Positions 34,155 to 52,629 of a DNA stretch of 52,629 nucleotides are shown here, one piece after another (the first letter of the stretch is position 1; every line of letters begins with the position of its first letter). Source of the stretch: Candidatus Solibacter sp. (GTDB taxonomy: Bacteria; Acidobacteriota; Terriglobia; Bryobacterales; Bryobacteraceae); NCBI GenBank assembly GCA_025361425.1, contig JANYAH010000233.1, forward strand, positions 1-52,629, given 5' to 3'. The notes below the pieces were generated by a model. It searched no databases. It was not told where the DNA came from and saw nothing but the letters and a program-made list of their open reading frames with translations. A program made the translations under genes and the position numbers.

Positions 34155-34158
34155 GTTT

Positions 34159-34191: not shown

Positions 34192-35505
34192 ATGAAGATT
34201 CTGGCGTTCACCGCCGGCGCGGCCAAAATGTATTGCGGCAGTTGCCTGCGCGACAACGCGCTGGCCGCGGAACTCAAGAACCAGGGCCACGACGTCATAC
34301 TGCTGCCGCTTTACACGCCCACCCGCACCGATGAATCGAACGTCAGTGAGCCCCTGGTATTCCTCAACGGAATCAGCGTGTGCCTGGACCAGCAGGCCGC
34401 CTTCTTCCGCAAAACCCACCGCCTGCTGGACCGTCTATGGGACGCACGCTGGATGCTGAAGCTAGCCTCCCAAACCTCCATCGAAGTGGACCCGCACCTG
34501 CTAGGCGGGATGACGGTCTCCATGCTGCGCGGCGAGGATGGCTTCCAACTCAAGGAGATCCGCAAGCTGAGCGTATGGCTGAAGGAATGGTTGCGCCACG
34601 AAGCGGCGCCGGACGTGGTCACCCTGCCAAATTCCTTGCTGATTGGCCTCGCGCGGCCGGTGCGCGAAGCCTTGAGCCGGCCAGTGTGCTGCACATTGCA
34701 GGGTGAGGAGTGGTTTCTCAGCCAGTTGCAGGAGCCCTTCCGGACGCAAGCGCTGGAGCTGATTCGCGCCAAGCTCCACCATGTCGATGGGTTCGTGGCC
34801 GTCAGCCGGTACTCCGCCGGCTATTGGATCCGCGAGTTGGGCATTCCCGAAAACCAGATGCACGTGGTCCCGCTGGGCATCAATCTGGAGGGATACTACG
34901 CGGCGGAGCGCGCGCCTCACCGGCTCTTTCGGGTTGGCTACCTGGCGCGGGTCGCGCCGGAGAAAGGGCTCCATCTGTTGGCGGAGAGTTACCTGCGCCT
35001 GCGCCGCGAGACCGATTTCGGCGGCGCGGTGTTGGAGGTGGCCGGTTATCTCGCCGCGGAGCATCGCGCCTATCTGCGCGGCATCGAACGGCGGATGAAG
35101 GACGCCGGCTTCGGGCCGGAGTTCCACTATCGCGGCGAACTCGACCGGGCGCACAAAATCGAATTCCTGAGCAGTCTCGACCTCCTCAGCGTCCCCAGCA
35201 CCTACGACGAGCCCAAGGGGATCTCCCTGCTGGAGGCGATGGCCAGCGGCGTGGCCGTGGTGCAGCCGCGGCGCGGTGCATTCCCGGAGATCCTGGCCCA
35301 GACCGGAGGCGGAGTTCTGGTGGAACCCGACGACCCGGCAAGCCTCGCCGACGCCATCTACCGCCTGTGGAAGGCTCCCGCAGAAATCGCGGAGTTGGGG
35401 CGTCGCGGCGCGCAGGGCGTTCGCCGGCACTACAACGTGTCGCAGATGGCGGAGCGGGCGCTCGCAGCCTACCAGAACATTGTCGCGGCGGTGGCCCATG
35501 CTTGA
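34192..35505 (+). CDS. Family 4-type glycosyltransferase
   Basis: 437 residues, GT-B fold, no signal peptide; cytoplasmic or peripheral. The N-terminal AFTAGAAKMYCGSCLRDNAL is followed by a 200-residue acceptor domain; the C-terminal donor half has VPLGINLEGYY, VGYLARVAPEKGLHLLAESY and the E-x7-E region STYDEPKGISLLEAMASGVA, where the usual E-P-F-G is E-P-K-G. Retaining GT4 enzymes use nucleotide sugars; the acceptor is unknown. First gene of an operon with an ABC ATPase (8-base overlap), a very large permease and a propeller protein, which suggests a glycan or glycolipid that is then exported or an envelope lipoprotein system. Confidence 0.9.
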   Translation: MKILAFTAGAAKMYCGSCLRDNALAAELKNQGHDVILLPLYTPTRTDESNVSEPLVFLNGISVCLDQQAAFFRKTHRLLDRLWDARWMLKLASQTSIEVDPHLLGGMTVSMLRGEDGFQLKEIRKLSVWLKEWLRHEAAPDVVTLPNSLLIGLARPVREALSRPVCCTLQGEEWFLSQLQEPFRTQALELIRAKLHHVDGFVAVSRYSAGYWIRELGIPENQMHVVPLGINLEGYYAAERAPHRLFRVGYLARVAPEKGLHLLAESYLRLRRETDFGGAVLEVAGYLAAEHRAYLRGIERRMKDAGFGPEFHYRGELDRAHKIEFLSSLDLLSVPSTYDEPKGISLLEAMASGVAVVQPRRGAFPEILAQTGGGVLVEPDDPASLADAIYRLWKAPAEIAELGRRGAQGVRRHYNVSQMAERALAAYQNIVAAVAHA

Positions 35506-36169
35506 AATCTCCCACGTCGCCAAAGAGTATCCGTCGCCCCGCGGGCCGCTGACCGTGCTTTCAGGCGTCTCGCTGGCGCTGAAACGGGGCGACTCGGCGG
35601 CCATCATGGGACCGTCTGGAGCCGGTAAGAGCACGCTGCTTTACATCGCCGGGGGCCTCGAGCCACCCACGGCTGGCGTGGTGACGCTCGACGGCACCAA
35701 TCCCTACCAGCTTGCCGAAAAGCAACTGGCGGCGTTCCGCAACCAGAAGATTGGCTTTATCTTCCAGGATCATTGCCTGCTGCCCCAGTGCTCGGTGTTG
35801 GAGAACGTGCTGATTCCAACGCTGGTGGCTCACGACGCCGCGGACGCTCCGCGGCGCGCCCGGGAACTGCTGGACCAGGTCGGGCTGGCGGACCGTCTGG
35901 ATCACCGGCCGGCCGAGCTATCCGGCGGCGAAAAGCAGCGTGTCGCGCTGGCCCGGGCGCTCATCCGGCGTCCGCATCTGCTGCTCTGCGACGAACCCAC
36001 CGGCAACCTGGATGAGGCGTCGGCAGAGAGGGTCGCGGACCTTCTGATGGAGTTGCACGCCGGCCAGCAGACCATGCTCATCGTGGTGACCCACAGCGCC
36101 GCTCTGGCCGCGCGATTTCCCCTACGCTATGAGTTGCGTCATGCGAATCTCAACCCTGCTGGCGCGTAA
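35498..36169 (+). CDS. ABC transporter ATP-binding protein (LolD/MacB type)
   Basis: 223 residues from the ATG at 35498; the longer upstream frame overlaps the glycosyltransferase and is not used. Walker A GPSGAGKST, Q-loop FIFQDHCLLPQ, signature LSGGEKQRVALARAL, Walker B LLLCDEPTGNLDE, H-loop VVTHSAAL. The QxxxLLPxxxVLENV segment and the short length are those of LolD/MacB ATPases, which pair with FtsX-like permeases and move lipoproteins, peptides or lipids out of the membrane rather than solutes across it. Overlaps both neighbours. Confidence 0.93.
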   Translation: MLEISHVAKEYPSPRGPLTVLSGVSLALKRGDSAAIMGPSGAGKSTLLYIAGGLEPPTAGVVTLDGTNPYQLAEKQLAAFRNQKIGFIFQDHCLLPQCSVLENVLIPTLVAHDAADAPRRARELLDQVGLADRLDHRPAELSGGEKQRVALARALIRRPHLLLCDEPTGNLDEASAERVADLLMELHAGQQTMLIVVTHSAALAARFPLRYELRHANLNPAGA

Positions 36170-39100
36170 TCTCACCTGGTATTGGCGCACGAACCTGGCG
36201 GTTCTGCTGGGGGTCGCCACCGCCACCGGCGTATTGGGCGGCGCGGCCCTGGTGGGCGAATCGGTGCGCGCCAGTTTGCGCAGCCTGGTGCTGGACCGGC
36301 TGGGCAATGCGGATTTCGTGGTCACACGCAGCGGATTCTTCCGCCAAGAGCTGGCGGCCGAAATGCAGCCTGCCGCACCGTTGATCGCCCTCGATGGCGC
36401 CGTGGCACACGAGCCCAGCGGCAAGCGCGCCGCCGGAATCCAGGTTTATGGAGTGGACGAACGCTTCTGGAAGTTCCAGGGGCTGCCCGGCGACGCGCCG
36501 CGCGGGCGCGAGATTCAGTTGACCGCGGCGCTGGCACGGGAACTGGGCGCCGCCACCAACGAAACCATCCTGCTGCGCATCCCGAAGCCCTCGGCGATTC
36601 CGTTAGAGACCCTGCACGGCCGCAAGGAAGATCTCGGAAAAACGCTCCGGCTCACCCTGAGCGGCGTTGTGCAACGCCCGTTCTCCCTACGCGCGCAACA
36701 GGGGGATGTGCGTGCGGTGTTTGTGTCCGTGGCGCATTTGCAGCGCGAAGTGAATCAGCCGCGCAGAGTCAATACGATTGTCGCCACACAAGGGAAGCTG
36801 CCCGCGCTCACACTGGCCGACTTGGGCATCCGCCTGCGCCTTGTGGAACTGGAGCAAGGGGTGGGGCGGACCCCCCAGGACCCCCTTCTCGCCAACGAGC
36901 GAAGCCGCGTCCAGGCGGCGCAAGCCGGCGGAGGCGCCGTTTCCCTGTCGCTCGAAACCGACAGCGCCGTGATCTCCGATGCCCTGGCGGACGTGGCCAC
37001 GCGCACGGCGCAGACCCTCGGCCTGCGCGTGCAACCCGTCTTGAGCTACCTCGCCAACAGCATGCGCATCGGCGGGCGCGAGGTGCCGTATTCGGTGGTG
37101 ACCGCGCTCGACACCGCGCCCGCGCCAGCCGCCGGGGATGGCATCGTCCTCAACCAGTGGGCTGCCAGCGATCTCCGCGCCAGAGTGGGCGATTGGTTGG
37201 AACTGGACTACTTCGTCTGGAAGCCGGATGGCCAACTGCACACCGAGACCTCCAAGTTCCAGGTGGAGCGCATCGTGCCAATCGACGCGGGGGACCGCGA
37301 GCTGACGCCCGAATACCCGGGGATCACGGAGTCGCGCAGCCTGCGCGATTGGGACCCGCCGTTCCCGCTGGACCTGACCCGCATCCGCCCGCGGGACGAG
37401 CACTACTGGGGCCGCTACCGCACCACACCGAAGGCCTTCGTCCGCCTCGCGCGTGGCCGCGCCCTTTGGGGCACGCGGTTCGGCAGCCTCACTTCCCTCC
37501 GCATCGGTGGGGCGGACCCCCAGGTCCGCGCGGGTTCCCCTGGACCCGCTCTTCGCTCGCCGAACCAGGACTTTACCGCCAGCGATCGGCCGCCCAGGGG
37601 GCAGGCATCGGACGCGGGCGGCCGCCCCCCGGTCCAACCTGGTGAGGCAGGCCTTCAGCCTCCCGCTGGAGTTTCTGCATTTTCAGGACAGGTGGCCAAT
37701 CGGCCCGCCAGCCTTCAGCCGGCGTTGGTGGGGAAGGCGCTTCCGCCTGCCGGCACTTTGGCCGGGCCCTATGCTGAGGCGCTACGCGCGGCGCTCGACC
37801 CCGCCACCCTGGGCCTCGCGGTCATCCCGGTGAAGGCGCAGAGCCTGGAAGCGGCGCAAGGCGCCACCGATTTCGGCGAGTATTTCGTCTATTTCAGCTT
37901 CTTTCTGGTGGTGTCGGCGCTCCTGCTGACGGGGCTGTTCTTCCGCCTGGGCATCGAACAGCGCAAACGCGAGATTGGCACCCTGCGCTCGCTGGGTTTT
38001 TCGGCATCCAAAATCCGCACGGTGTTTCTGCTGGAAGGGGCCACGCTCGCCGTGGCGGGCGCCGCGGTGGGCATCGGCGTGGCACTGGCATATGGCGCCC
38101 TCATCCTGCTGGGGTTGCGCACCTGGTGGTTCGACGCGGTGGGTACGCGCCTGCTCTCGCTACATGCCGCGGCCGCACCGCTGGCCGTAGGGGCCATCGC
38201 CGGGGTGGCCGTAGGCCTGGGTTCGGTGGCATGGACCCTGCGCGGACTTCAGCCGGAAACTCCCCGGGGTCTGCTGGCGGGTGTGCAGAAGACCGCGACC
38301 GGACGTTGGCGCTGGTTCGCCGGAGCTACGGCGGCGGGCCTCGCGGCGGCACTGATGGGCGCGGGTCTGGCCGTGCGGTTCGACCCCACCGCCGGATTCT
38401 TCGGCGCCGGCACGCTGCTGCTGATTGCCGCGCTGCTGCTGGAATCCGCCTGGCTGCATACGCGGCGCTTCGCCCCGATTCGAGGACAAGCCACGTTGGG
38501 GATGCGCAACGTCGCCTACCGCCCGGGCCGCAGCATTCTTTGCATCGCCCTGATCGCTTCGGCAACCTTCGTAATCGTCTCGCTGGATGCCTTCCGCCGA
38601 GATGGTTCCGCGGCGGGAACGGGCGGGTTCCCCCTGCTGGCGGACTCGGTATTGCCGCTGATTCACGATCCCAATTCGGCGGCGGGCCGGAGCGCATTGA
38701 ATCTTCCTTTGCTCGATAGTGTCCAGTTGGTTCCCTTCCGCCTGCGGCCGGGCGACGACACCAGTTGTCTGAATCTTTACCAGGCGCTTCGTCCGCGCAT
38801 TCTGGCGCCTCCCGCGACGTTCCTCCGCTCTGCGCGTTTCGCCTTTCAGCGTGCCGGGGGGCAGACGAAAAACCCGTGGCTGCTGTTGGAATCGAAGCTC
38901 GCCGGGGGCGCGATTCCCGCCATCGCCGACGCCAATTCGATGACCTATGTGCTGCACCGCAAACTGGGCGAGGAGTTCGAGTTGGATGGGGTCCGCTTCC
39001 GCATTGTGGCAGCGCTCCAGGACAGCTTGTTTCAGAGCGAATTGATCGTCTCGGAGGAGAGCTTCTTGCGGCTGTATCCGGACACCCCGGGCTACCGCTT

Positions 39101-39611
39101 CTTCCTGGTGAACGCGCCACCGGGGAAAGAGAAGGAGACCACGCGGGTGCTGGAGGACGGGCTCTCTGGTTACGGCTTCAACGTGCAGTCCGCGCCCGCC
39201 CGCCTGGCGGCTTTTCACCGGGTAGAGAACTCGTATCTGGAAACTTTCCGCGCGCTCGGCGCGCTGGGTTTGCTGCTGGGCACGGTTGGCCTGGCGGCGG
39301 TGCTGATGCGCAGCGTGCTGGAGCGCCGTGCGGAACTGGCACTGTTGCGCGCCGTGGGGTATCGCCCGCGGCACCTGGTAGTGATGGTGCTGGCGGAGAA
39401 TCTGTTTCTTCTGGTGGTTGGCTTGGCCACCGGCGCCGCGTGCGCCGCCGTCGCGGTGGCTCCCGCCGTTGCCGTGCGCGGTGGTCATCTGCCCGTGATG
39501 AGTTTGAGCGTGCTGCTGGCCCTGGTGCTGGCGACCGGAATGCTTGCTTCCCTTGCCGCCACGGCGGCGGTTTTGCGTGCTGGGGTGCTGGACGCACTCA
39601 GATCGGAGTAA
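36141..39611 (+). CDS. Giant FtsX-like ABC permease (duplicated MacB/LolCE-type)
   Basis: 1,156 residues from the ATG at 36141 (an ATG at 36129 adds four residues), overlapping the end of the ATPase gene by 29 bases. TM1 at about 18-42, then a MacB-like periplasmic domain, TM2-4 with the FtsX core (FVYFSFFLVVSALLLTGLFF, EIGTLRSLGFSASKIRTVFL), a central set of helices, a second periplasmic part, and a second FtsX core near the end (LGALGLLLGTVGLAAVLMRS, LALLRAVGYRPRHLVVM). About ten helices, so both halves of a permease are fused. Residues near 237-250 and 457-545 are Pro/Gly-rich, appear only in this region, and are encoded by palindromic repeat DNA that lies in frame. Probably works on a lipid-linked or lipoprotein substrate. 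Confidence 0.88.
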   Translation: MRISTLLARNLTWYWRTNLAVLLGVATATGVLGGAALVGESVRASLRSLVLDRLGNADFVVTRSGFFRQELAAEMQPAAPLIALDGAVAHEPSGKRAAGIQVYGVDERFWKFQGLPGDAPRGREIQLTAALARELGAATNETILLRIPKPSAIPLETLHGRKEDLGKTLRLTLSGVVQRPFSLRAQQGDVRAVFVSVAHLQREVNQPRRVNTIVATQGKLPALTLADLGIRLRLVELEQGVGRTPQDPLLANERSRVQAAQAGGGAVSLSLETDSAVISDALADVATRTAQTLGLRVQPVLSYLANSMRIGGREVPYSVVTALDTAPAPAAGDGIVLNQWAASDLRARVGDWLELDYFVWKPDGQLHTETSKFQVERIVPIDAGDRELTPEYPGITESRSLRDWDPPFPLDLTRIRPRDEHYWGRYRTTPKAFVRLARGRALWGTRFGSLTSLRIGGADPQVRAGSPGPALRSPNQDFTASDRPPRGQASDAGGRPPVQPGEAGLQPPAGVSAFSGQVANRPASLQPALVGKALPPAGTLAGPYAEALRAALDPATLGLAVIPVKAQSLEAAQGATDFGEYFVYFSFFLVVSALLLTGLFFRLGIEQRKREIGTLRSLGFSASKIRTVFLLEGATLAVAGAAVGIGVALAYGALILLGLRTWWFDAVGTRLLSLHAAAAPLAVGAIAGVAVGLGSVAWTLRGLQPETPRGLLAGVQKTATGRWRWFAGATAAGLAAALMGAGLAVRFDPTAGFFGAGTLLLIAALLLESAWLHTRRFAPIRGQATLGMRNVAYRPGRSILCIALIASATFVIVSLDAFRRDGSAAGTGGFPLLADSVLPLIHDPNSAAGRSALNLPLLDSVQLVPFRLRPGDDTSCLNLYQALRPRILAPPATFLRSARFAFQRAGGQTKNPWLLLESKLAGGAIPAIADANSMTYVLHRKLGEEFELDGVRFRIVAALQDSLFQSELIVSEESFLRLYPDTPGYRFFLVNAPPGKEKETTRVLEDGLSGYGFNVQSAPARLAAFHRVENSYLETFRALGALGLLLGTVGLAAVLMRSVLERRAELALLRAVGYRPRHLVVMVLAENLFLLVVGLATGAACAAVAVAPAVAVRGGHLPVMSLSVLLALVLATGMLASLAATAAVLRAGVLDALRSE
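36860..36882. repeat. GGTGGGGCGGACCCCC repeat, copy A (inside permease gene)
   Basis: GGTGGGGCGGACCCCCC then AGGACC, also present at 37506 with one C fewer. Self-complementary core GGGGCGGACCCC-like. Translated here as part of the permease in a different reading frame from copy B. Confidence 0.6.
37506..37760. repeat. Cluster of palindromic repeats inside the permease gene
   Basis: Starts with copy B of GGTGGGGCGGACCCCC, then GGTCCGCGCGGG / GGGTCCAGGGGAACCC-like inverted pieces, then GGCAGGCCTTCAGCCTCC, GCCAGCCTTCAGCCGGCG and GGGGAAGGCGCTTCCGCC. The same style of hairpin (GGCAGGCT-TC-AGCCTGCC) occurs in the gap at 47475-47492. The stretch stays open in the permease frame and adds about 85 low-complexity residues. 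Confidence 0.55.
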
Positions 39612-39617
39612 AGTGCC

Positions 39618-40862
39618 ATGAGATTTCACCCATGTTGGATGATTCTGCTCCCACTTGCGGGGTATGCCGAAAACTGGCCACAGTGGCGCGGCCCCTCGCT
39701 GAACGGCATCAGCAGCGAGCAGAATCTGCCCGTCCGTTGGAGCACCACCGGGAACGTGGCGTGGAAGCTGGCGATGCCCAGTAAGACGGGTGCCACGCCC
39801 ATCATCTGGGGCAACCGGATCTTCCTCAACGTCGCCGAAGGCGGCAGCCTTTACCTGTGGTGCGTCGACAAGGCCAAGGGCCAGCCGCTCTGGAAGAAAC
39901 TGCTTGCCGGCGGCGACTACCAGATCAACAAACAGAACATGTCGTCTCCCTCGCCTGTGACCGATGGCACGGCGGTATTCGCCATGACGGGCGTCGGCGT
40001 GTTGAAAGCCTTCGATTTCGCCGGCAACGAACTTTGGGTGCGCGATATCCAAAAGGATTACGGGAAGTTCGGCCTCAACTGGGGGTATGCGGCGTCTCCC
40101 CTGCTCTCTGGCGACAGCCTGTACATTGAAGTGCTGCACGGGATGAAGACCAAGGACCCATCCTATCTGCTGCGCATCGACACGAGGAGCGGCAAGACGG
40201 TGTGGCGGGTGGAGCGGCGCACGGACGCAGTCCGCGAATCGCCCGATTCGTATACCACGCCAGCGCTGCTGAAGTACGGCGACCAGGTGGAGATTGTCAT
40301 CTCGGGCGGCGATTGCGTCACCGGGCACAACCCGGCCACGGGCAAAGAGTTGTGGCGCGCCAAGGGGCTCAACCCGGACAACAATCCGTTCTACCGGACC
40401 ATCGCCTCCACCGTGGTTTTTGGCGACCTGTTCTTCGTGCCCACGCGCGTCAGGCCGCTGCTGGCATTCCGCGCGGGAGGACGCGGCGATATCACCGAAT
40501 CGCACCGCCTGTGGAGCTTCAACAACGGTCCGGACGTGCCCACGCCGGTCACCGACGGCAAGTACTTCTACACGGTGAACGATCGCGGCATCATGTGGTG
40601 TCTCGATGCCCGCACCGGGCAGGAGATCTGGGGTAGCCAACGGCTCAAGCCCGCGGTCTACAGTTCGTCGCCGGTGCTGGCGGATGGCAAGCTCTACGTC
40701 AGCAACGAAGACGGCCTCACCACGGTGGTCAAGGCCGGCCCCAAATTCGAAGTGCTGGCGGAGAACGATCTGGAGGGCTACACGCTGAGTTCGCCGGCCA
40801 TCTCCGATGGCCGCATTTTCCTGCGCACGGCACAGTTCCTATACTCCATCGGCGGGCGGTAG
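39618..40862 (+). CDS. Exported PQQ-type beta-propeller protein (propeller 2)
   Basis: 414 residues. A short signal ([11 protein letters not shown]) is followed by [15 protein letters not shown], the shared opening motif. Blade motifs: [63 protein letters not shown]. Few Cys and no heme motif. It starts 6 bases after the permease stop with GGAG upstream, hence is the last gene of the glycosyltransferase-ABC operon. A BamB-like scaffold role in the envelope is possible; enzymatic activity cannot be claimed. Confidence 0.85.
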
Positions 40863-40871
40863 GAAGCTTGT

Positions 40872-40907
40872 GCGGCAATCCTGGCGGCCGGCCGGCATTC
40901 TTGCCGC
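40872..40907. repeat. Palindrome between convergent propeller genes
   Basis: Outer arms GCGGCAA (40872-40878) and TTGCCGC (40901-40907) enclose a GGCGGCCGGCCGGC core. It lies 9 bases after the stop of the plus-strand gene and 15 before that of the minus-strand one and could end both transcripts. Confidence 0.5.
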
Positions 40908-40921
40908 TCGCGAGGTAGGCG

Positions 40922-42013
40922 CTATTTTCCCCCGAAGCAATAAAGCCGGCCGTCCTGCGCACCGATGACGATGCGGCCGGCGGCGATGGCGGGCGACGCG
41001 GAGAGCGGGGCACCGGCTTCGAAATCCCATAGCTTTTTCCCCGACGCCAGATCCAGCACGTAGAAGTGGCCGTCGTTGGAACCGATGTAGACGCGGCCGC
41101 CGGCGATTGCCGGGGACGAATCCACACGGGCGCGCGTCACGAAAGTCCAGATCGCCTTTCCGGTTTTCAAATTCAGACAGTGCACCTTCTTGTCGCGCCC
41201 GCCGAGCACCATGCGGTCCCCCGTGACTGCCGCCGACGAGTAGAACGGGAACGCGCTGGGATGCCGCCAGACGATCCGCTTACGCCGCACATCGGCGCCC
41301 ATCACCTCATTGCCGAGCGTGCCATACCAGGCCCAATCGCCCATGCGCACGGGGGAGGCGCCGGTATAGCCGCCAGAGGGAAATTGCACCGTTTCCCGCC
41401 CGTCTGCGATGCGTATGCCGTGAAAGACTTCATCGCAACCGGCCACCCACGCGATGCCGGCGGAAACGGCGGGCGTGGCGTGCACGTAGCTGGCGGTTTC
41501 GGCTTTCCACAGCAGCTTGCCGTCGCTGCGCGACAGCGCGTAGAGGTTGCTGTCGTAAGAGCCGATCAACACCCGGTCGCCAACGATCACCGGCGACGAT
41601 TTGATCTCCGCCTCGGTTTTAAAGGTCCACAGCCGCTTGCCGGTGGCTGCGTTGACGGCGTGCAGCACGCCCGCGAGATCGCCCACGTAGACGCTTAACC
41701 CGGCGACGGCGGGGGAGGATTCGCCGATGCCATCGGTCGCGCGGTATTTCCAGCGCAGCTTGCCGGTTGCCAGATCGATGGCCAACAGATCCTTGGATTG
41801 CGACCCGACGTATACCGTGCCGCCCGCAATCGCGGCGGAAGATTCGATGGCTTCGCCCGCATCGTAGGTCCAGAGCAGTTTCAGAACGTCCGGGACCGGC
41901 CCCGCGGCCACTCCGGTGAGTTGTGGATTGCCGCGAAACTGGGGCCACTCGTCACTGGCGCTGAGGGTGGCGGCGGCCATCAGCAGAACCGCCAGCCGGC
42001 GCATGGCGGTCAC
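40922..42013 (-). CDS. Exported PQQ-type beta-propeller protein (propeller 3)
   Basis: 363 residues from a GTG at 42013 that overlaps the previous stop by 4 bases (GTGA); an ATG four codons in (42004, MRRLAVLLMAAATLSAS) would also serve as the start of the signal peptide. Opening motif DEWPQFRGNPQLTGVA. The blades are shorter and more regular than in the others (AIDLATGKLRWKY, AVNAATGKRLWTF, ALSRSDGKLLWKA, CLNLKTGKAIWTF, VLDLASGKKLWDF), each with a V-Y-V/I-G-S repeat strand, so this is a clean seven- or eight-bladed propeller. Third of three tandem propeller genes. Confidence 0.85.
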   Translation of the reverse strand: MTAMRRLAVLLMAAATLSASDEWPQFRGNPQLTGVAAGPVPDVLKLLWTYDAGEAIESSAAIAGGTVYVGSQSKDLLAIDLATGKLRWKYRATDGIGESSPAVAGLSVYVGDLAGVLHAVNAATGKRLWTFKTEAEIKSSPVIVGDRVLIGSYDSNLYALSRSDGKLLWKAETASYVHATPAVSAGIAWVAGCDEVFHGIRIADGRETVQFPSGGYTGASPVRMGDWAWYGTLGNEVMGADVRRKRIVWRHPSAFPFYSSAAVTGDRMVLGGRDKKVHCLNLKTGKAIWTFVTRARVDSSPAIAGGRVYIGSNDGHFYVLDLASGKKLWDFEAGAPLSASPAIAAGRIVIGAQDGRLYCFGGK

Positions 42014-43383
42014 GGCTTCGCCGCGAGCGCGAAGAGCTGGTTGCGGTTGCTCAGGAACAAGGTCCCATTGGCCGGCACCACGGTGGAGTAGACGTTGCTT
42101 CCCATGTTGGTTTCGAAAATCAGCTTCTTCTCCTTGGCCGCTTCCATCACCACTACGTCGCCGTCTTCGTCGCCCAGGTAAACCTTACCGCCGATCACCA
42201 TGGGCGAGGCCCAGACCTTGGACAGCACATCGTGGGTCCAGTGCGCCTTGCCAGTGTTGACATCGAGGCAGTGCAGGAAGCCCGCTAGATCGGCAATAAA
42301 CAGCAAGCCGTTCTCGATGGCGACGCTGGAGACGCTGCGCGACACCTTGTCGTATTCCCAGATGCGTCCGCTGGTGGTGATGTCGCCCCGCTTCGTGGCG
42401 TCGATGGCGTAGAGGTGGGCTGGCCCCGCGCCGCTTTCGGGGTCCTGTCCGTTGACGATATAGACCTTGTTCTGCCAGATCACCGGCGTCGCAATAATCT
42501 CATTGCGCGTCTTCGGCCACACCGAACTCTTGGGGTTGGTGTCGAACTCCCACAGCTTTTTGCCGGAAAGCGCCTCGTAAGAGCGCACCCAGCCGTCGCC
42601 TTCGCCGATCGCCACCTGGGCCGCGCCGTCCACCGCTGCCACCGCCGGTGACGACCACTGGCCGTTCAGAATCTTGTCCCCGACACTGTTCACCTGCCAG
42701 ACCAGCTTGCCGGTTTTCTTGTCGACGGCGACCATGGAAGGCGCGCGCGGCGCGGGCACGCGTTCGCGATTCTCATCCTGGCCGTTGGAAGTGCCCGCGA
42801 TCACCAGATCGCCGAACGTCACCGGCGATGAGTTCGACTGATTGCGCGGGGACACGCCGAGTTCCTTGATCATGTCGAACTTCCAGACGACCTTGGCGTT
42901 GCCGCTGCCGTCGCCGTGCGTGTCCAGGCAGACGAGTTCGCAGCGGTTCGTCACGTAGTACAGGCGGTCGGCTTCCACCAAAGGCGAGGAGCAGGCGCCA
43001 ATTTCGGGCCAGTCCTGAGCCGCGCCGGTCGCCAGCTTCTCATTGGCGTGCTGCCACAGGAACGCGCCGTCCCTTTCGCGGAAGCACATCAGCACGCTGC
43101 GGTCGCCGGGTTCCTTGGGGTTGCGCACCAGTTCGTTGTTGGTGCCCACGTAGACTTGTCCGCCCGACACCACGGGGTTGCCATAGGTCTGCGACCCCAG
43201 CTTCGCCACCCACTTCACGTTCTTCCCGGTCTTGACGTCCCACGTGGCAGGGGCGCCGTTCATGGAAGAGACCATGTTGCGGTCCCCAGTGCCGCCCCAC
43301 ATGGGCCAATCGCGCGCGGCCGGGTCGCTGGCCACCAGCAGGCAGCCGTAGACGGCACAACAGAGAAGGGTCAAGCGTGACAT
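42010..43383 (-). CDS. Exported PQQ-type beta-propeller protein (propeller 4)
   Basis: 457 residues. Signal peptide (LTLLCCAVYGCLLVASD), then ARDWPMWGGTGDRNMVSS, a variant of the shared opening. It is the most divergent of the set, with a longer N-terminal half (NELVRNPKEPGDRSVLMCFR, CLDTHGDGSGNAKVVWKFD). Blade motifs AVDKKTGKLVWQV, SYEALSGKKLWEF and CLDVNTGKAHWTH are present. Located 13 bases downstream of propeller 5 and overlapping propeller 3, so the three are one transcription unit. Function not known. Confidence 0.84.
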   Translation of the reverse strand: MSRLTLLCCAVYGCLLVASDPAARDWPMWGGTGDRNMVSSMNGAPATWDVKTGKNVKWVAKLGSQTYGNPVVSGGQVYVGTNNELVRNPKEPGDRSVLMCFRERDGAFLWQHANEKLATGAAQDWPEIGACSSPLVEADRLYYVTNRCELVCLDTHGDGSGNAKVVWKFDMIKELGVSPRNQSNSSPVTFGDLVIAGTSNGQDENRERVPAPRAPSMVAVDKKTGKLVWQVNSVGDKILNGQWSSPAVAAVDGAAQVAIGEGDGWVRSYEALSGKKLWEFDTNPKSSVWPKTRNEIIATPVIWQNKVYIVNGQDPESGAGPAHLYAIDATKRGDITTSGRIWEYDKVSRSVSSVAIENGLLFIADLAGFLHCLDVNTGKAHWTHDVLSKVWASPMVIGGKVYLGDEDGDVVVMEAAKEKKLIFETNMGSNVYSTVVPANGTLFLSNRNQLFALAAKP

Positions 43384-43396
43384 AGTTTCAGCGGTT

Positions 43397-44605
43397 TCAA
43401 CGTTTGATGTCGTAACTGTAGAGGTTGTCCTGCTCGCGCAGGTAGAGCCGGCCGTTCGCCACCACGGGCGGTGTCCAGGTGGGGTTCCCTCCGCGCGGGA
43501 TTTCGAACCGCGATTTCTCCGTGTAGGCTGCCGGCGTGGGCTCGATCAGCCCGACGACGCCGTCTTCGCCCATGCAATAGAGCCGCTGCTCGGCGTAGAT
43601 GCAGTTGCCTTTACCGACGCTGCGGTTGCGCCATGCCACTTTCCCAGTGAGGAACTCCATGGCGGTGAGAATGCCGCTGGAGAAGCCGTATAGGTGCTCG
43701 CCCACCAGCACGGCGGTGGTGTAGTGGTTGCGCATGTCTTTATTGAAATAGACCTCGGAAGCCTGCACAGACCCGTCCTGCGGCGTGAGTTTCAGTAGGG
43801 CGCAGCCGGTGCCGTAGTCGCTGGAAACGAAGATGTGATCTTTGTTGACAATCGGCGTCGCGGCATTAGCGGTGCGGTTTGCGACATTGGTATAACGCCA
43901 CAGCAATTCGCCGTTCTTCATATTCAGCCCGACGGCGGCGCTGGCGGTGAGAGTGGCCAAGCCGCGGGTTCCGCCGGCATCGAATGGAATCGCCGAGGAG
44001 TACCCTGCCCCGTCGCTCTGCGATTTCCATAGGACTGAGCCGGTGGCTTTGTTCAGCGCGACGATGGACGCGCCAGGTCCGCCGGGGGTCACGATCACCC
44101 GGTCGCCTTCCACCAGGGGCGATTCGCTGTATCCCCATCGCGGCTCGCGGCCTTTGAAATCGGCGACGAAGTTGGTTCCCCAAACGCGCTTTCCCGTGTC
44201 CGTCTCCAGGCAGACCAGCGTGCCGTCGCCGGCCACCGCGTAGAGGCGGTTGCCATCCACCGTGGGCGTGCCGCGCGGGCCGTTCCCCTTGTCATTGCCG
44301 AAGCCGCGGCCGGAGGGCGTCTTCCAGAGTTGTTTGCCGGTAGCCACGTCCAGCGCGAGCACGAACTCCTGCTCGCCCCGCTGCCCCTGGGTGTACAGGC
44401 GATTGCCTACCACGGCAAACGAGGAATAGCCTTCGCCCAGCCCTTGCCCCTTCCAGACAAGGCGCGGTCCGCCGGCCGGCCATTGCGCGAGCAAGCCGGT
44501 TTCCGCGGATTTTCCGTCGCGATTGGGCCCGCGCCACTGAGACCAATCGGCTGCCGGGGCAAGCGCACAGAAGAAGAGAGCGATCAGACAAATAGATCTG
44601 AACAT
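43397..44605 (-). CDS. Exported PQQ-type beta-propeller protein (propeller 5)
   Basis: 402 residues. Signal peptide SICLIALFFCALAPA, then ADWSQWRGPNRDGKS. Blade motifs: ALDVATGKQLWKT, CLETDTGKRVWGT, ALNKATGSVLWKS, GLNMKNGELLWRY. An internal repeat of -FVSSDYGTGCALLKL- type is seen in this subgroup. Follows the enolase-superfamily gene by 59 bases and heads the three-propeller group; may share its promoter. No ribosome site is obvious. Confidence 0.85.
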   Translation of the reverse strand: MFRSICLIALFFCALAPAADWSQWRGPNRDGKSAETGLLAQWPAGGPRLVWKGQGLGEGYSSFAVVGNRLYTQGQRGEQEFVLALDVATGKQLWKTPSGRGFGNDKGNGPRGTPTVDGNRLYAVAGDGTLVCLETDTGKRVWGTNFVADFKGREPRWGYSESPLVEGDRVIVTPGGPGASIVALNKATGSVLWKSQSDGAGYSSAIPFDAGGTRGLATLTASAAVGLNMKNGELLWRYTNVANRTANAATPIVNKDHIFVSSDYGTGCALLKLTPQDGSVQASEVYFNKDMRNHYTTAVLVGEHLYGFSSGILTAMEFLTGKVAWRNRSVGKGNCIYAEQRLYCMGEDGVVGLIEPTPAAYTEKSRFEIPRGGNPTWTPPVVANGRLYLREQDNLYSYDIKR

Positions 44606-47661: not shown

Positions 47662-47856
47662 ATGCGGACGAACATCGTAATTGACGATAAACTGATGCGG
47701 GACACGCTTCGCGCAACGGGCCTGAAGACCAAGCGCGAGGCCGTGGATGAGGCGCTGCGGACTTTGCTCCGCCTGAGGCGACAGGCGGGGATCCGCCGGC
47801 TCCGCGGCAAACTGGACTGGCAGGGCGATCTAAACGCGATGAGGAGCAACAGTTGA
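47662..47856 (+). CDS. vapB: VapB-type antitoxin
   Basis: 64 residues: N-terminal ribbon-helix-helix (MRTNIVIDDKLMRDTLRATG, then KTKREAVDEALRTLLR) followed by a short toxin-binding tail (RLRGKLDWQGDLNAM). This is the usual VapB layout for the MRTNIVIDD subgroup. The TGA stop overlaps the toxin's TTG by 4 bases. The inverted repeat in the promoter is the probable autoregulatory site. Confidence 0.9.
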   Translation: MRTNIVIDDKLMRDTLRATGLKTKREAVDEALRTLLRLRRQAGIRRLRGKLDWQGDLNAMRSNS

Positions 47857-48245
47857 TCCTCGTCGATTCCAGCGTGTGGATCGATTACTTTAAGGGGACG
47901 ATCACGGTGCAGACCGGGACCCTCGACAACCTGCTTGGCCAACAGCCTCTGGCCATTGGTGACTTGATTCTGACTGAGGTCTTGCAAGGCTTCGACAACG
48001 AACGAGACTTCAAGGACGCTATGGAAATGCTGACTTCGCTGCTGGTAGTGGAGTTGGGCGGGCAGGAAATCGCCATTCAAGCGGCCAAGAATTTCCGCGC
48101 GCTGCGCCGGCTCGGCGTGACCGTTCGCAAGACCATCAATACGGTGATTGCCACCCGATGCATCGAAAGCGGGTATGACCTGCTGCACAACGACCGGGAT
48201 TTTGATCCATTCGCCAAGCACCTCGGCCTGCGCGTGGCGGTCTGA
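47853..48245 (+). CDS. vapC: VapC-type PIN-domain ribonuclease toxin
   Basis: 130 residues, from a TTG at 47853 (GAGGAG eight bases upstream; TTGA overlap with vapB). PIN-domain acidic residues: Asp5 (LVDSSVWIDYFKG), Glu42 (DLILTEVLQGF) and Asp near NTVIATRC / LLHNDRDFDPFA. Toxins of this kind cut tRNA or other RNA when free of VapB. The rare TTG start may lower toxin yield relative to antitoxin. The pair lies between two copies of the CTTCAGGCC repeat, in a region of weak gene density. Confidence 0.9.
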   Translation: MILVDSSVWIDYFKGTITVQTGTLDNLLGQQPLAIGDLILTEVLQGFDNERDFKDAMEMLTSLLVVELGGQEIAIQAAKNFRALRRLGVTVRKTINTVIATRCIESGYDLLHNDRDFDPFAKHLGLRVAV

Positions 48246-48619: not shown

Positions 48620-49876
48620 ATGTACACCCGGCGAGGTTGGATCATCGGCGCGGGCGCCGCGGGGGTTGCCTCCCTGCTGCCGGCGGCGCAGGGGTCGGAC
48701 TGGACGCAGTTCCGCGGGCCGGACCGAAACAACATCTCCAAAGAGACGGGTCTGTTGCGCAAATGGCCGGCCGCCGGACCCAAGGTGCTGTGGTCGGTTC
48801 CGGTGACGCAGGGGTATGCCGCCGCCGCCATCGTGGGCGGACGTGTCTACCACCACGACTACGATGAGGCCAAGTCCGAGTGGTGCGTCAACTGCCGCTC
48901 CCTGGCCGATGGCAAGCTGATCTGGCAGTTCCGCGAAGCGCGCGAAGTCCGCCCCAACCACGCCATCACCCGCACCATCCCGGCGGTGGACAGCCGTTTC
49001 GTCTGCTCTTTGGACCCCAAGGCCGTGCTGCATTGCCTGGACGTCAAGACCGGCAAACAGATCTGGCGCAAGAGCCTGGTCACGGAATACAAGGCCACCA
49101 TTCCCTCCTGGTACAACGGGCAGTGCCCCTTGCAGGAAGCCGACCGCTTGATCATCGCCACCGGCGGCGCGGCCATCATGGTGGCGCTCGACAAAGCCAC
49201 CGGCAAGGAACTCTGGCGCACCCCGAACCCGGGGCAGTACATGCTCTCGCACTCGTCGGTGATGCCGGCGGTTCTGGGCGGCGTCAGGCAGTACCTCTAC
49301 GGCACGCTCAAGGGTCCGCTGGGTGTCTCTGCCAAGGACGGTAAGCTGCTCTGGGAATTCGGCCGCAAGTTCAACGTGGCGGTTGCGCCCTCGCCCATCG
49401 CGGTGGATGAGGAACGCGTTTTTATGACCGCCAGCTACGACGCGGGCAGCGTGATGGTCCGCGTGCGGCGCACGGGCGAAGCCTTTAAGGCCGAGGCCGT
49501 GTTCGACCTGAAGAACAACGAGTGGAACTCCGAGGTGCACACGCCGATTGTCCACAAAGGCCACATGTTCGCCGTGGGCAAGAAGAAGCGCGGCTTGTTT
49601 ACCTGCCTCAGCTTCGACGGCAAGGAGGTTTGGACCAGCGAGGGCAAAGCCTCCTTCGGGCTGGGCAGCTTCATGATGGCCGACGGCATGTTCTTTGTGC
49701 TGGACGGCGACACGGGCAAACTGCGACTCATCGAGGCCGGCGCCGCGCGCTACAACGAACTGGGCAGCGCGCAGGTTCTCGCGGGCCAGGAGGTCTGGGC
49801 CCCCATGGCATTGTCGGACGGCAAGCTGGTCTTGCGGGACCTGACCAAGATGATCTGCATCGACGTTCGCGGGTAG
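48620..49876 (+). CDS. Tat-exported PQQ-type beta-propeller protein (propeller 6)
   Basis: 418 residues. YTRRGWIIGAGAAGVASLL is a twin-arginine signal, so unlike the other propellers it may be exported folded, perhaps with a cofactor. Opening motif SDWTQFRGPDRNNIS. Blade motifs: [49 protein letters not shown] run HSSVMPAVLGG is seen where metal or cofactor could bind, but no heme motif. GAGGAG ribosome site. First gene of an operon that continues with NHL, polyferredoxin and NapH-like genes. Confidence 0.86.
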   Translation: MYTRRGWIIGAGAAGVASLLPAAQGSDWTQFRGPDRNNISKETGLLRKWPAAGPKVLWSVPVTQGYAAAAIVGGRVYHHDYDEAKSEWCVNCRSLADGKLIWQFREAREVRPNHAITRTIPAVDSRFVCSLDPKAVLHCLDVKTGKQIWRKSLVTEYKATIPSWYNGQCPLQEADRLIIATGGAAIMVALDKATGKELWRTPNPGQYMLSHSSVMPAVLGGVRQYLYGTLKGPLGVSAKDGKLLWEFGRKFNVAVAPSPIAVDEERVFMTASYDAGSVMVRVRRTGEAFKAEAVFDLKNNEWNSEVHTPIVHKGHMFAVGKKKRGLFTCLSFDGKEVWTSEGKASFGLGSFMMADGMFFVLDGDTGKLRLIEAGAARYNELGSAQVLAGQEVWAPMALSDGKLVLRDLTKMICIDVRG

Positions 49877-49888
49877 GGGAAGGGCGTG

Positions 49889-50710
49889 ATGACATACCGG
49901 CAAATTCGAGTCATCGGCGGCAAGGGCAACGCGCCCGGCCAGTTCGCGACATCGCTGCGCTGCCTTGCGGTGGATGCCCACGGGCAACTCTTTGCGGGCG
50001 GCGATTCCGAGATCAAGCTGTTCGACGCCGCCGGCCGGCTCAAGCGGCGCTGGTCCACCTCCCGGCCGGTGCTCTCCCTGGCCGTGGCGGGCGATGGGGC
50101 AGTATATGCCGGCCAACCGGGCCAGATTGAAATCTTTGACGGCGCCGCCAAACTCGTCAACACCTGGCGCGGCGAAACCCTGCTGGGGCGCGTCACGGCC
50201 ATCGGCTTCGTCAAGGACGGCGTGTTGGCTGGGGACGCGGCGGACCGCGCGATCCGCCACTTCGACCGCACAGGCAAGTTCCGCAACCACATCGGCAAGC
50301 ACAATCCGGTGAACGGCTTCCTCATCCCCAACGGCGTGGTGGATTTCGCGGTGGACGCCCAAGGCGTCATCCACGCGGCCAACCCCGGCAAGCACCGCGT
50401 GGAGCGCTACTTGCCCACCGGCGAGTTGCTCGGCCACATCGGGCGCTTTCACGGCACCGATCCGGCGGGCTTCGGCGGCTGCTGCAACCCCACCAATGTG
50501 GCTGTCCGCGACCATATCTACGTCACCGAGAAGGCCGGCCCGCGCGCCAAGGTCTACGATTTCAACGGCAACCTGCAGGCCGTCGTCGCGTCCGCCCCGT
50601 TCGACCCCAATTGCAAGAACATGAGCGTGGCCGTGGATGGGCGAGGGTTGGTTTACGTCGCCGACACGGTCAAGCTCGCCGTCTTCGTTTTTGAACCGGT
50701 GACCGTATGA
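49889..50710 (+). CDS. NHL-repeat six-bladed beta-propeller protein
   Basis: 273 residues from the ATG at 49889 (GGGGAAGGG upstream; a GTG directly before it is also possible). Blades of the NHL kind: VIGGKGNAPGQFATSLRCLA, HFDRTGKFRNHIGKHN, YLPTGELLGHIGRFHGTD, VYDFNGNLQAVVAS. FGGCCNPTNVAV and DPNCKN place Cys pairs near one face. No signal peptide or membrane segment is visible, which is odd between exported partners; it may act inside the cell, ride out with the Tat substrate or be a sensor. The stop overlaps the next start by 4 bases. Confidence 0.8.
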   Translation: MTYRQIRVIGGKGNAPGQFATSLRCLAVDAHGQLFAGGDSEIKLFDAAGRLKRRWSTSRPVLSLAVAGDGAVYAGQPGQIEIFDGAAKLVNTWRGETLLGRVTAIGFVKDGVLAGDAADRAIRHFDRTGKFRNHIGKHNPVNGFLIPNGVVDFAVDAQGVIHAANPGKHRVERYLPTGELLGHIGRFHGTDPAGFGGCCNPTNVAVRDHIYVTEKAGPRAKVYDFNGNLQAVVASAPFDPNCKNMSVAVDGRGLVYVADTVKLAVFVFEPVTV

Positions 50711-51327
50711 GCGAACCGGTAACCAGGCGGGATCTGTTGCACCAGGTGGTCCGCGGCGGCGTCCTCGCGACGTTCGGCGGCGGCGCCATTTTCCTGGTCC
50801 AAAAAGCCCACGGACAGGTGGTCTGGCAAGTGGATGCGTCACGCTGCATCAACAGCCGCCTGGGCGATACCGGCGCGGAGGCGTGCAAGCTCTGCACCAC
50901 GGAGTGCGTGGTCGCGCTATCGGCGGTCCGCGCGGTCAACGAGTATTCGAAATGCGGGCGCTGCAATATCTGTCCGGCCTACTTCAACATCACCAGCGCG
51001 GTGGATGCCCAGGGCTTGCCAAGCGAAAAACTCTGCCCGCGCGATGCCATTGCGCGCAAGCCCATCGGCAAGGCCGACCCCGAGGACCCGGCCAACAATT
51101 TCTACGAATACTCGATTGATGAGGAGAAGTGCGACGGCTGCGGCAAGTGCGTCATGAAGTGCAAGGAACCGCTTGGGCTGGGTTCCATTGTCCTGCGGGT
51201 CCGTTACGACAAATGCGAGGACTGCAACCGCTGCGCCATCTCCCGGGCATGCCCGAAGGACGCCCTGATTCAGGTTCCGGTGGAACAAGCTCTCCGCCCG
51301 CCGGAACTCCACCCCCGCACCGAATGA
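50707..51327 (+). CDS. Tat-exported polyferredoxin
   Basis: 206 residues. The twin-arginine signal (TRRDLLHQVVRGGVLATFGG) shows export as a folded, cluster-loaded protein; an uncleaved anchor is possible. Cys motifs in order: a solitary Cys (ASRCINS), CKLCTTEC, CGRCNICP, LCPRDA, CDGCGKCVMKC, CEDCNRC and ACPKDA, enough for about four 4Fe-4S clusters. The layout recalls NapG/NrfC-like periplasmic ferredoxins that pass electrons between a membrane NapH and a soluble partner. Overlaps both neighbours by 4 bases (ATGA), so tightly coupled. Confidence 0.88.
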   Translation: MSEPVTRRDLLHQVVRGGVLATFGGGAIFLVQKAHGQVVWQVDASRCINSRLGDTGAEACKLCTTECVVALSAVRAVNEYSKCGRCNICPAYFNITSAVDAQGLPSEKLCPRDAIARKPIGKADPEDPANNFYEYSIDEEKCDGCGKCVMKCKEPLGLGSIVLRVRYDKCEDCNRCAISRACPKDALIQVPVEQALRPPELHPRTE

Positions 51328-52406
51328 TGAGGGCGAGGGAGTTCGTTCAACCCCCAGGTGTGGGGCAGGCAATCCTGCCTGCGGACACGCTTTCCAGCGT
51401 GTCCAGACGCCAGATGGAAAGCCGGCGGCAGCCAGGATTGGCTGCCCCACAGAGGCTCCTACTACTTCTCCTCTCGCTCTTCCTGGCCTTCGCACCCACC
51501 CTCCCCGCGCAATCTATTCCCTATTCGCGTCCCGTGGAAACCGCGCCGCAAGCGGAGACCATCGGCGGCGGCTACAAAACGCCCGCCGTCCAGAAACCCC
51601 TGCCGCGCGATGCCTACCTTCAGATGTTGGATGTACTGCTCCTGGCGGCGGCGATGGGAATCTCCGTCTGGTTGGTGATCAAGCGGCGCAGCCGGAAATG
51701 GGCGGTCGCTCTGACCATCGGATCGCTGGCCTACTTCGGCTTCTATCGCGAAGGCTGCGTCTGCCCCATCGGGTCGATTCAGAACGTGGCGCTGGCGCTT
51801 ACCGACCGCACCTACGCCATCCCCATGGTCGTGACCGCGACCTTCTTCCTGCCCCTGGTCATCGCTCTGTTTTTCGGGCGCGCCTTCTGCGGCGGCGTGT
51901 GTGCGCTCGGCGCCATCCAGGAACTGGTACTGCTGAAGCCGGTCCGTGTGCCGCCGCGGCTCGATCGCGCCCTGGGCCTGTTGAAATACGTTTATCTCGG
52001 CCTCGCCATCTTCCTAGCCATCAAACCCGCCCTCGGCCGCGACTTCCTGATCTGTCGCTTTGACCCGTTCGTCGGTTTCTTCCGCCGCACCGGCGCGCCC
52101 CACATGCTGCTGCTGGGCGGGGGATTTCTGCTGCTCGGCATGTTTGTGGGACGGCCCTACTGCCGCTACCTGTGCCCGTATGGCGGCTTGCTGGCGTGGT
52201 GCACCCGGCTGGCCCGCCGTGGAGTCACCATCACGCCGGATAAAGAACTCGATTGCGGCCTCTGCGCCGAAGCCTGCCCCTACGGCGCCATCGAGCACAT
52301 GCGCGCCGTGCGCAAAGACTGTCTGTATTGCGCCCGATGCTATGCCTCGTGCCCGCGCGATGGCGAGTTGGCGCACACGAAGGCGGAGCTGGTGCACCTG
52401 TCATGA
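51324..52406 (+). CDS. NapH/NosR-like membrane 4Fe-4S protein, 5' end repeat-derived
   Basis: 360 residues from the ATG that overlaps the preceding stop (ATGA). Residues about 13-42 are encoded by a 91-bp palindromic element (51360-51450), after which a hydrophobic stretch (LLLLLLSLFLAFA) and five more helices follow. Cys motifs at the membrane: GCVCPIG, FCGGVCALG, YCRYLCPYG, as in NapH and NosR; then two soluble ferredoxin clusters CGLCAEACP and CLYCARCYASCP. Carries electrons from quinol or through the membrane to the polyferredoxin upstream. An ATG at 51414, still inside the repeat, is an alternative start. Confidence 0.88.
   Translation: MMRAREFVQPPGVGQAILPADTLSSVSRRQMESRRQPGLAAPQRLLLLLLSLFLAFAPTLPAQSIPYSRPVETAPQAETIGGGYKTPAVQKPLPRDAYLQMLDVLLLAAAMGISVWLVIKRRSRKWAVALTIGSLAYFGFYREGCVCPIGSIQNVALALTDRTYAIPMVVTATFFLPLVIALFFGRAFCGGVCALGAIQELVLLKPVRVPPRLDRALGLLKYVYLGLAIFLAIKPALGRDFLICRFDPFVGFFRRTGAPHMLLLGGGFLLLGMFVGRPYCRYLCPYGGLLAWCTRLARRGVTITPDKELDCGLCAEACPYGAIEHMRAVRKDCLYCARCYASCPRDGELAHTKAELVHLS
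51360..51450. repeat. GTGGGGCAGGC palindromic element, 91 bp, inside a gene
   Basis: Outer arms GTGGGGCAGGCAATCCTG and CAGGATTGGCTGCCCCAC pair nearly completely; the centre holds a perfect 9-bp hairpin GGACACGCT-TTCC-AGCGTGTCC (51383-51404). It is translated in the NapH-like gene as VGQAILPADTLSS and RQPGLAAP, a peptide pair that betrays this element. Confidence 0.75.
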
Positions 52407-52629
52407 GACGCGCAGCTTGGATCTCGGGCAGCCTGATTGCCTTGTGCGTCGCCGTTCTGTTGACCGACTACGCAGTCGCCACCCGCCGCACGCCAAACGA
52501 TGACCGCCTCATCAAGTCCCTACAGGAGAAGGTGAAATCCGATGCGCAGTTGGCCCCCAAACTGGCCGCTGAGCAGAAGCGAGTCACCGCCGTGCGCCGC
52601 GCCCGCAAGTCGCGCGACAACGCCCTCGC
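52403..52629 (+). CDS. Membrane-anchored protein, N-terminal part (cut by window end)
   Basis: 75 codons are visible; the ATG overlaps the NapH-like stop by 4 bases, so it belongs to the same operon. A single membrane helix (AWISGSLIALCVAVLLTDY) is followed by a short basic piece (ATRRTPNDDR) and a helical, charged stretch (LIKSLQEKVKSDAQLAPK, then AAEQKRVTAVRRARKSR) likely to form a coiled coil. No family recognised from this part. In NapH-type modules the next gene is often an FMN-binding or ferredoxin protein, but that cannot be judged here. Confidence 0.6.
   Translation, partial: MRRAAWISGSLIALCVAVLLTDYAVATRRTPNDDRLIKSLQEKVKSDAQLAPKLAAEQKRVTAVRRARKSRDNAL

Follow-up and report, generated by a model that had tools for sequence, protein, structure and literature searches.

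In this study we examined the five genes at the end of a 52,629-nucleotide stretch of DNA from Candidatus Solibacter sp. (contig JANYAH010000233.1, assembly GCA_025361425.1; the whole stretch is called the window here) together with their relatives in other genomes. These five genes open an operon of seven, and we give a little better than even chances to the reading that this operon encodes a membrane-bound enzyme of the Bfu family that would be wired across the membrane to iron-sulfur and beta-propeller proteins in the periplasm. An earlier sequence-only reading of the window had described a chain of membrane ferredoxins and propellers without any known terminal reductase, and this is borne out by what follows the window, namely NuoE-, NuoF- and Nfn-type genes, i.e., those of a Bfu-family NADH/ferredoxin enzyme. 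No paper on this operon was found in a literature search of open-licence papers.

All five open reading frames (ORFs) are real, lie on the + strand between 48,620 and the end of the window, and have the junctions that had been claimed for them: a gap of 12 bases after gene 1, counted to the ATG start of gene 2 at 49,889 (a GTG at 49,886 is an alternative start), and 4-base overlaps at the next three junctions. Gene 1 (48620..49876) encodes a PQQ_2-type beta-propeller (PF13360, E 6.5e-42) with an N-terminus resembling a twin-arginine translocation (Tat) signal, MYTRRGWIIGAG. Gene 2 (49889..50710) encodes a six-bladed NHL propeller with a conserved CCNP motif, whose Pfam matches to SGL and NHL lie below cut-off. 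The product of gene 3 (50707..51327) is a Tat-type polyferredoxin with Fer4 domains, its 16 conserved cysteines making up four [4Fe-4S] sites, and that of gene 4 (51324..52406) is a NapH/NosR-like membrane iron-sulfur protein with two Fer4_5 stretches, a Fer4 domain and an extra cysteine triad, CxC plus CxxDPF, on its predicted outer face. Only the start of gene 5 (52403..52629), encoding the membrane anchor of BfuC, lies within the window, where it is cut by the contig end; this part matched no Pfam family. A palindromic repeat (51359..51451, unstranded; 24-nt arms, 92% complementary) of which the genome has many copies lies within the 5′ end of gene 4 and extends the N-terminus of the window's NapH-like protein, and near relatives have other palindrome-like stretches at the same position.

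The remainder of the operon was found on contig C224 (locus L009), the start of which is identical to the last 141 bases of the window. Here gene 5 continues to 288 aa and encodes two hydrophobic helices separated by a charged stretch, followed by a NuoE-type domain (BfuC). The sequence-only reading, which took gene 5 for a membrane-anchored coiled-coil protein, saw only the start of what is as a whole an anchor-NuoE/BfuC fusion. Gene 6 (BfuB, L009:778-2538) overlaps gene 5, whose stop is at 781, by 4 bases and encodes a NuoF-type protein of 586 aa with a C-terminal ferredoxin domain. Gene 7 (BfuA) begins at about L009:2807 and runs off the contig; complete BfuA proteins of relatives have ~690 aa and comprise a 2Fe-2S domain, a GltD-like part for flavin adenine dinucleotide (FAD) and NADP, and C-terminal clusters. 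The same succession is seen in contiguous relatives in which no contigs had to be joined, with all seven genes in L032 and, in L031, genes 2-7 behind the end of gene 1.

The enzyme core is Bfu-type by its sequence, and bifurcation is predicted for it. BfuB of the window's genome has the flavin mononucleotide (FMN) domain and the C-terminal two-cluster ferredoxin domain that characterize Bfu enzymes (Complex1_51K, NADH_4Fe-4S and Fer4_21 in Pfam), and its nearest solved chains are 9n5u (NfnB), 8oh5 (Sporomusa Stn) and 9bov. It also has the complete set of B2-site ligands, the His included, as C427, C465, H514, C519 and C524 were aligned with C438, C476, H525, C531 and C536 of the NiFe-Bfu subunit 7t2r_B. 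The ligand list was taken from section 6 of PMC9304861, which describes the 7t2r ligands as a pentacoordinate site and the His as missing from non-bifurcating homologues. A pattern for this site matched in 38 of the 43 BfuB proteins with the B1 motif; of the remaining five, three keep His and Cys but differ in the linker, and two yielded no such region. The linker of StnB is reported to hold a Zn ion (PMC10482914), and the nature of the site is therefore unsettled between these two sources. For BfuC and BfuA the complete copies of genome G004 were used. BfuC matched 7t2r_C (E 4.8e-36) and PF01257 (5e-40), as expected of the NuoE-type [2Fe-2S] subunit of a Bfu enzyme, and its C208, C213, C250 and C254 are conserved in an alignment of 35 rows. 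BfuA matched 9bov_A (E 1.7e-167) and 8oh5_C (7.7e-149). Of the two clusters in the ferredoxin part at the C-terminus of BfuA, one keeps its ligands and the other has lost them in the members inspected; the lost cluster would be C2, and the C1/C2 branch of Stn is treated as lying outside the electron path in PMC10482914. In a quick tree a single branch, with a support of 100, set 46 operon BfuBs apart from 11 NuoF/BfuB proteins encoded elsewhere in these genomes, the 11 being those further matches that were extracted as loci and long enough rather than all such matches.

The polyferredoxin was used as bait for finding further loci. A profile search of genome contigs yielded 30 loci from Acidobacteria (many of them Bryobacterales), Planctomycetota/Phycisphaerae and one genome labelled just 'bacterium'; with the window and eight divergent loci from its phylum, these make up a first set of 39. 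Gene order is kept in 39/39 loci, contig ends allowed for, and with this recurrence the arrangement is not a matter of chance. Genes 2-4 are present in all 39, gene 1 in 38 (the single miss is at a contig start), BfuC in 36, BfuB in 35 and BfuA in 29. The test concerns order only, because strand and distance filters had been set around the polyferredoxin; the shared strand was seen in unfiltered lists. Pairwise distances of six operon genes co-vary over 23 loci (Mantel r 0.78-0.94, with 0/999 permutations as high), and the ratio of nonsynonymous to synonymous substitution rates is 0.05-0.31 across the seven genes against up to five relatives, covering only the first ~120 codons in the case of BfuA.

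In samples of 392 Planctomycetota and 396 Acidobacteria genomes, each including the genome on which it was centred, the polyferredoxin was found in 36 (E<=1e-12) and 11 (E<=1e-20), respectively. Twenty of the 36 Planctomycetota genomes were opened at the locus, and 19 show, as far as contigs and frames allow, a related form of the operon with the order propeller, NHL, polyferredoxin, NapH-like, anchor-propeller fusion, NuoE, BfuB and BfuA (L109, L112, L114, L116 and L117 are partly cut or frame-broken, and the NHL gene occurs twice in L116). At E<=1e-95 the NapH-like profile matched 11 of the 396 Acidobacteria genomes, exactly those with the polyferredoxin, with the next match at 1.2e-38, and the NHL profile matched 13 at E<=4.1e-87, namely those 11 plus G144 and G196, with the next at 1.1e-30. 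A true loss of the redox genes from the propeller pair in G196 and G144 was considered and rejected, as assembly breaks explain both: in the single-contig scaffold of G196 a run of 100 N follows directly after the NHL gene (L125) and the BfuB end and BfuA stand behind a second 100-N gap (L156), and the contig of G144 stops 78 bases past the NHL stop. The gene order that the sequence-only reading had proposed to seek in other Acidobacteria and Planctomycetes was looked for and found, and its suggestion that the propellers are part of a redox module gains from the conservation of both order and presence in the two phyla. As we read the loci, the propellers stand beside NapH-like genes elsewhere too, and what begins after the window is no known reductase operon.

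The step across the membrane would fall to the NapH-like protein. Hydropathy gives five to seven stretches that vary among members, which we read as six helices with assigned sides. In this model the charge distribution would place the ferredoxin domain and the CX3C(P) pair on the inner side and the GCxC(P) and CxxDP[FY] motifs on the outer side. The outer-face cysteine triad is present in 57/57 family members, a 58th row (L056) having been dropped as a mis-extracted frame. These cysteines are absent from Paracoccus NosR, an Aquabacterium NosR-like protein and E. coli YccM, and a Leptolinea homologue has one of them. The protein scores below the NCBIfam cut-offs for NapH (TIGR02163, 31.3 bits vs 213.05) and NosR (NF046105, 36.1 vs 1000). 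CX3CP motifs matter for both NapH and NosR, with their chemistry described as unsettled (PMC5928378). In the clade of the window the first ferredoxin motif (KELDCGLC) is without its first Cys, but it is complete in L070 (L070:9971-11320, DECNNCRLC); this cluster may be unusual.

Likeness of the membrane module to NapH and NosR allows another view, in which the NapH-like protein is a quinol/quinone site, menaquinone the third substrate of a quinone-linked Bfu enzyme, and the polyferredoxin and propellers merely stabilise or regulate it. NapH is described as menaquinol-oxidising (PMC5928378) and Nuo-Bfu is predicted to be menaquinone-linked (PMC9304861), both of which fit this view, yet a quinone-only enzyme would need neither an outer-face triad kept throughout the family nor the retained exported four-cluster polyferredoxin, and we consider it unlikely. 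With a Bfu partner that is predicted to be cytosolic, the NapH-like protein has a possible electron donor besides quinol. The earlier proposal of an undescribed periplasmic redox module accordingly stands as regards a redox module of conserved gene order and falls as regards a purely periplasmic one.

The polyferredoxin starts with a twin-arginine motif, and 16 of its cysteines are conserved across 37 aligned rows; the alignment omits two rows, those with an in-frame TGA. In these two (L064 of genome G290 and L065 of G153, from one genus) a single in-frame TGA, at 9237 and 9131, respectively, takes the place of cluster ligand C86. The 15 codons after the TGA are identical in G290 and G153 although 77/197 codons differ across the gene, which was matched by 0.015% of shuffles. 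A 7-bp hairpin with a UGGA loop lies 12 bases downstream of the TGA, where three Cys-bearing relatives fold less well; local folding of this possible selenocysteine insertion sequence (SECIS) region is no better than that of shuffles (z 0.22). Both genomes have a tRNA-Sec match of 72-73 bits, for which ARAGORN gives the anticodon tca in G290, and tRNA-Sec is also above cut-off in all 13 genomes searched and in 5/14 controls. No further internal stop at a conserved Cys was seen in the loci scanned. It is probable from these features that selenocysteine serves as a [4Fe-4S] ligand in the two proteins.

Further evidence for a connection between the enzyme core and the membrane proteins comes from the two-helix coiled-coil anchor, which occurs as a fusion partner of NuoE (the form of the window), of NapH (L066) and of a propeller (L069, L070 and the Planctomycetota form). 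In hhalign comparisons 33 NuoE-fused anchors gave a probability of 97.2% against 18 propeller-fused anchors and 99.1% against the single NapH-fused anchor; the propeller- and NapH-fused anchors compared directly gave 57%, and two control comparisons with NHL anchors gave 0.08% each. The occurrence of one anchor domain on NuoE, NapH and a propeller supports the idea that Bfu core, NapH and propeller are physically near each other. In the NapH fusion (L066:3811-5298) the following 4.3 kb hold no Bfu genes.

NADPH feeds electrons into the Stn enzyme via the GltD-like domain (PMC10482914), and the fate of this domain bears on the third partner of the operon enzyme. It is present in 24 of 27 first-set BfuA proteins and absent in L057, L069 and L070; two further first-set BfuA, the window's own included, are cut before the domain and stand outside the 27. 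None of the 18 BfuA in the Planctomycetota set, of which two or more are broken fragments, shows the NADP motif. The L104 locus belongs to a genome of 7.4 Mb assembled as a single contig; there one ORF of 998 aa joins NuoE and BfuB to a NuoG-like iron-sulfur stub, with neither an FAD nor an NADP motif seen by inspection, and the propeller, NHL, polyferredoxin and NapH-like genes are kept. With the domain missing from the Planctomycetota form, NADPH is probably not an essential third partner. To judge by these proteins NADP(H) looks dispensable for the system, with the membrane module as the more constant partner.

These data also bear on whether the core is simply a Stn/Nfn-Bfu transhydrogenase (acting on NADPH, NADH and ferredoxin) that is merely tethered to the membrane and lies beside a separate four-gene periplasmic redox unit. 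A near relative's BfuA aligns along Stn/Nfn-type subunits, the NADP domain is kept in most of the first set, and L066 has genes 1-4 and the anchor without Bfu genes, all of which such an arrangement would explain. It would leave unexplained why the membrane genes stay where the NADP domain is gone (3/27 and 18/18), why the order holds in every first-set locus, and why the anchor is common to the NuoE, NapH and propeller fusions, and we assign it a low probability.

By inspection, the start of propeller 1 (gene 1) is Tat-like in the window and several Bryobacterales loci and Sec-like in others, and a membrane helix is present in all five other-form loci inspected (L069, L070, L101, L102 and L104); the protein looks exported. 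It conserves polar residues, His and Trp. The NHL proteins carry the CCNP motif in 57/57 cases, and the AlphaFold model of the NHL protein is confident except for the loop before CCNP (predicted local distance difference test, pLDDT, 92), its nearest solved folds being NHL domains. Neither propeller has a recognised redox cofactor, as far as the sequences and the NHL model were examined. Pyrroloquinoline quinone (PQQ) is unlikely to be one: propeller 1 scores 30.6 bits against the 480.05 cut-off of the PQQ-dehydrogenase model TIGR03075, and PqqE is above cut-off in 0/32 operon genomes, a negative without positive control, as it is in 0/14 controls too. With these results and the non-Tat starts in several loci, a PQQ or PQQ-maturation reading is weak, and the maturation system for a propeller-bound cofactor that had been offered as a second possibility from the window alone found no support.

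A reversed flow, in which a periplasmic donor is oxidised at the propellers and electrons pass through the polyferredoxin and the NapH-like protein to a Bfu core that bifurcates them to NAD+ and ferredoxin, would agree with the description of Bfu enzymes as reversible (PMC9304861), with the polar residues, His and Trp of propeller 1 and with the CCNP of the NHL protein. The lack of a recognised cofactor in the propellers and of PqqE above cut-off makes such an electron input improbable. Little weight can likewise be given to a maturation or reactivation role, in which electrons would keep a periplasmic metal or cofactor site of the propeller reduced, as NosR does for NosZ. NosR has a role in NosZ activation (PMC5928378), a NosR-like membrane protein stands beside a propeller here and CCNP is invariant, but the metal site is only hypothetical, the Pfam scan of the window protein gave no NosR-type FMN domain, and the window's lineage may keep its NHL protein in the cytosol.

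The gene content, gene order, conserved ligands and anchor fusions, as well as the partial lack of the NADP domain, can be put together as follows for the membrane-bound Bfu enzyme that we favor. Cytosolic BfuC-BfuB (NuoE-/NuoF-type, with FMN and ferredoxin-facing clusters) would trade electrons with NADH and ferredoxin, BfuA would connect BfuC-BfuB to the membrane, and the two-helix coiled-coil anchor would hold the complex. The NapH-like protein would carry electrons across the membrane by way of its cytosolic ferredoxin clusters, the CX3C(P) pair and the outer-face cysteine triad, and the Tat-exported four-cluster polyferredoxin would receive them and serve one or more propeller proteins. 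The usual direction would be from NADH and reduced ferredoxin outward to a mid-potential periplasmic acceptor, with the reverse possible. That all parts belong to one complex and that electrons flow across the membrane we infer with moderate confidence.

Several observations weigh against this reading. The fold model of the NapH-like protein is poor (pLDDT 58), its hydropathy varies, and the six-helix topology is our own reading. No hydrophobic stretch is seen at the N-terminus of the NHL protein in 33 of the 39 first-set loci (one of them cut); L063-L065, L067, L069, L070 and most of the Planctomycetota set have one. The window's NHL protein has no visible signal peptide and may be periplasmic or, in this lineage, cytosolic. 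NADPH may still be a substrate in the 24 first-set enzymes that retain its domain. Eleven of the 39 loci are incomplete, and while a contig end explains nine of these, L066 (G298), with genes 1-4 and the anchor only, and L068 (G282), with no BfuA behind BfuB, are real exceptions. A third real exception is L120 (G492), the remaining one of the 20 opened Planctomycetota genomes: its polyferredoxin (L120:7665-8213) is near a contig end, the genes that come after it are unrelated, and neither a NapH nor a Bfu gene was present within 7.6 kb. The polyferredoxin was itself the bait, and a shared operon is no proof of a shared complex.

Other features of the window lie outside the operon. A unit that spans 30914-44605, a TonB-type receptor included, recurs by the operon in other Acidobacteria and Planctomycetota. 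Its parts that recur are a glycosyltransferase (34192..35505, +; Glyco_transf_4/Glycos_transf_1 in Pfam), an ATPase of the ATP-binding cassette (ABC) type (35498..36169, +; named by inspection of its translation), an ABC permease of 1160 aa (36129..39611, +; FtsX-like by inspection) and ORFs for four propellers, A (39618..40862, +), B (40922..42013, -), C (42010..43383, -) and D (43397..44605, -). Eight of 58 distinct loci (the window, G004, G243, G102, G391, G568, G610 and G725) contain three or more of the genes for propeller B, glycosyltransferase, ABC ATPase and permease, a count that covers operon neighborhoods only, many loci holding too little flank to judge. The unit was not seen in the retrieved flanks of G436, G441, G608 and G702, and beside L104 there are two weak matches only. 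Just upstream of the operon are a gene for a 4Fe-4S protein with an odd cysteine run, CCCCGCCCG (46110-47234, -), and, between it and the operon, a candidate VapB/VapC (PIN) toxin-antitoxin pair (47662-48245); a candidate pair resembling the latter follows BfuB in L068, both pairs having been recognized by eye only.

It is important to consider what such an operon would mean. The operon may represent a new membrane-bound class of Bfu enzymes that couples NADH and ferredoxin, or the reverse, to electrons of low or mid potential at the outer face of the membrane via a transmembrane wire made of iron-sulfur clusters only and leading to propellers, in some species with a selenocysteine-ligated [4Fe-4S] cluster. 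We hold this wider claim only tentatively, with the chances rather against it; if true, it would be a cytochrome-free route, unrelated to Rnf, for bifurcated electrons into the periplasm. There are 17 BfuB clades without obvious function according to PMC9304861, which predicts third substrates yet to be discovered, and the operon is a concrete, conserved candidate for a Bfu clade of hitherto unassigned function. If the wiring is right, cytosolic NADH and ferredoxin are linked to periplasmic chemistry without cytochromes. The operon also offers a testable function for part of the PQQ-like and NHL propeller families. Such propellers are numerous in Acidobacteria and Planctomycetota, and the window alone has six.

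Among known systems, the Rnf complex joins ferredoxin and NADH to the membrane. No Rnf subunits were seen in the operon, and its role as an Rnf replacement was considered and rejected: RnfC is above cut-off in 13/32 operon genomes, so that the operon is not a simple Rnf substitute. POR_N (PF01855) is above cut-off in 32/32 operon genomes and also in 10/14 controls, which makes this finding only permissive. With NapGH and NosR/NirI the operon shares the two CX3C(P) motifs, the C-terminal ferredoxin domain and the adjoining Tat polyferredoxin, the plasmid-borne relatives found being 25-31% identical to the G004 copy across 49-85% of its length; it differs in having no terminal reductase, the extra CxC and CxxDPF triad and a cytosolic Bfu partner. 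The Nfn-Bfu enzyme StnABC of Sporomusa ovata (8oh5; PMC10482914) is alike in its NuoE-, NuoF- and Nfn/GltD-type subunits, and BfuB best matches this kind. To these the operon adds the membrane anchor of BfuC, the NapH-like protein, the polyferredoxin and two propellers, whereas its BfuA has a shorter C-terminus, keeps the ligands of one of the two ferredoxin clusters and has in part lost the NADP domain. The predicted Nuo-Bfu and Mbh-Bfu systems (PMC9304861) likewise combine a Bfu core with a membrane module, and in place of their Complex I or Mbh proton pump the operon has a NapH-like iron-sulfur protein and exported iron-sulfur and propeller proteins.

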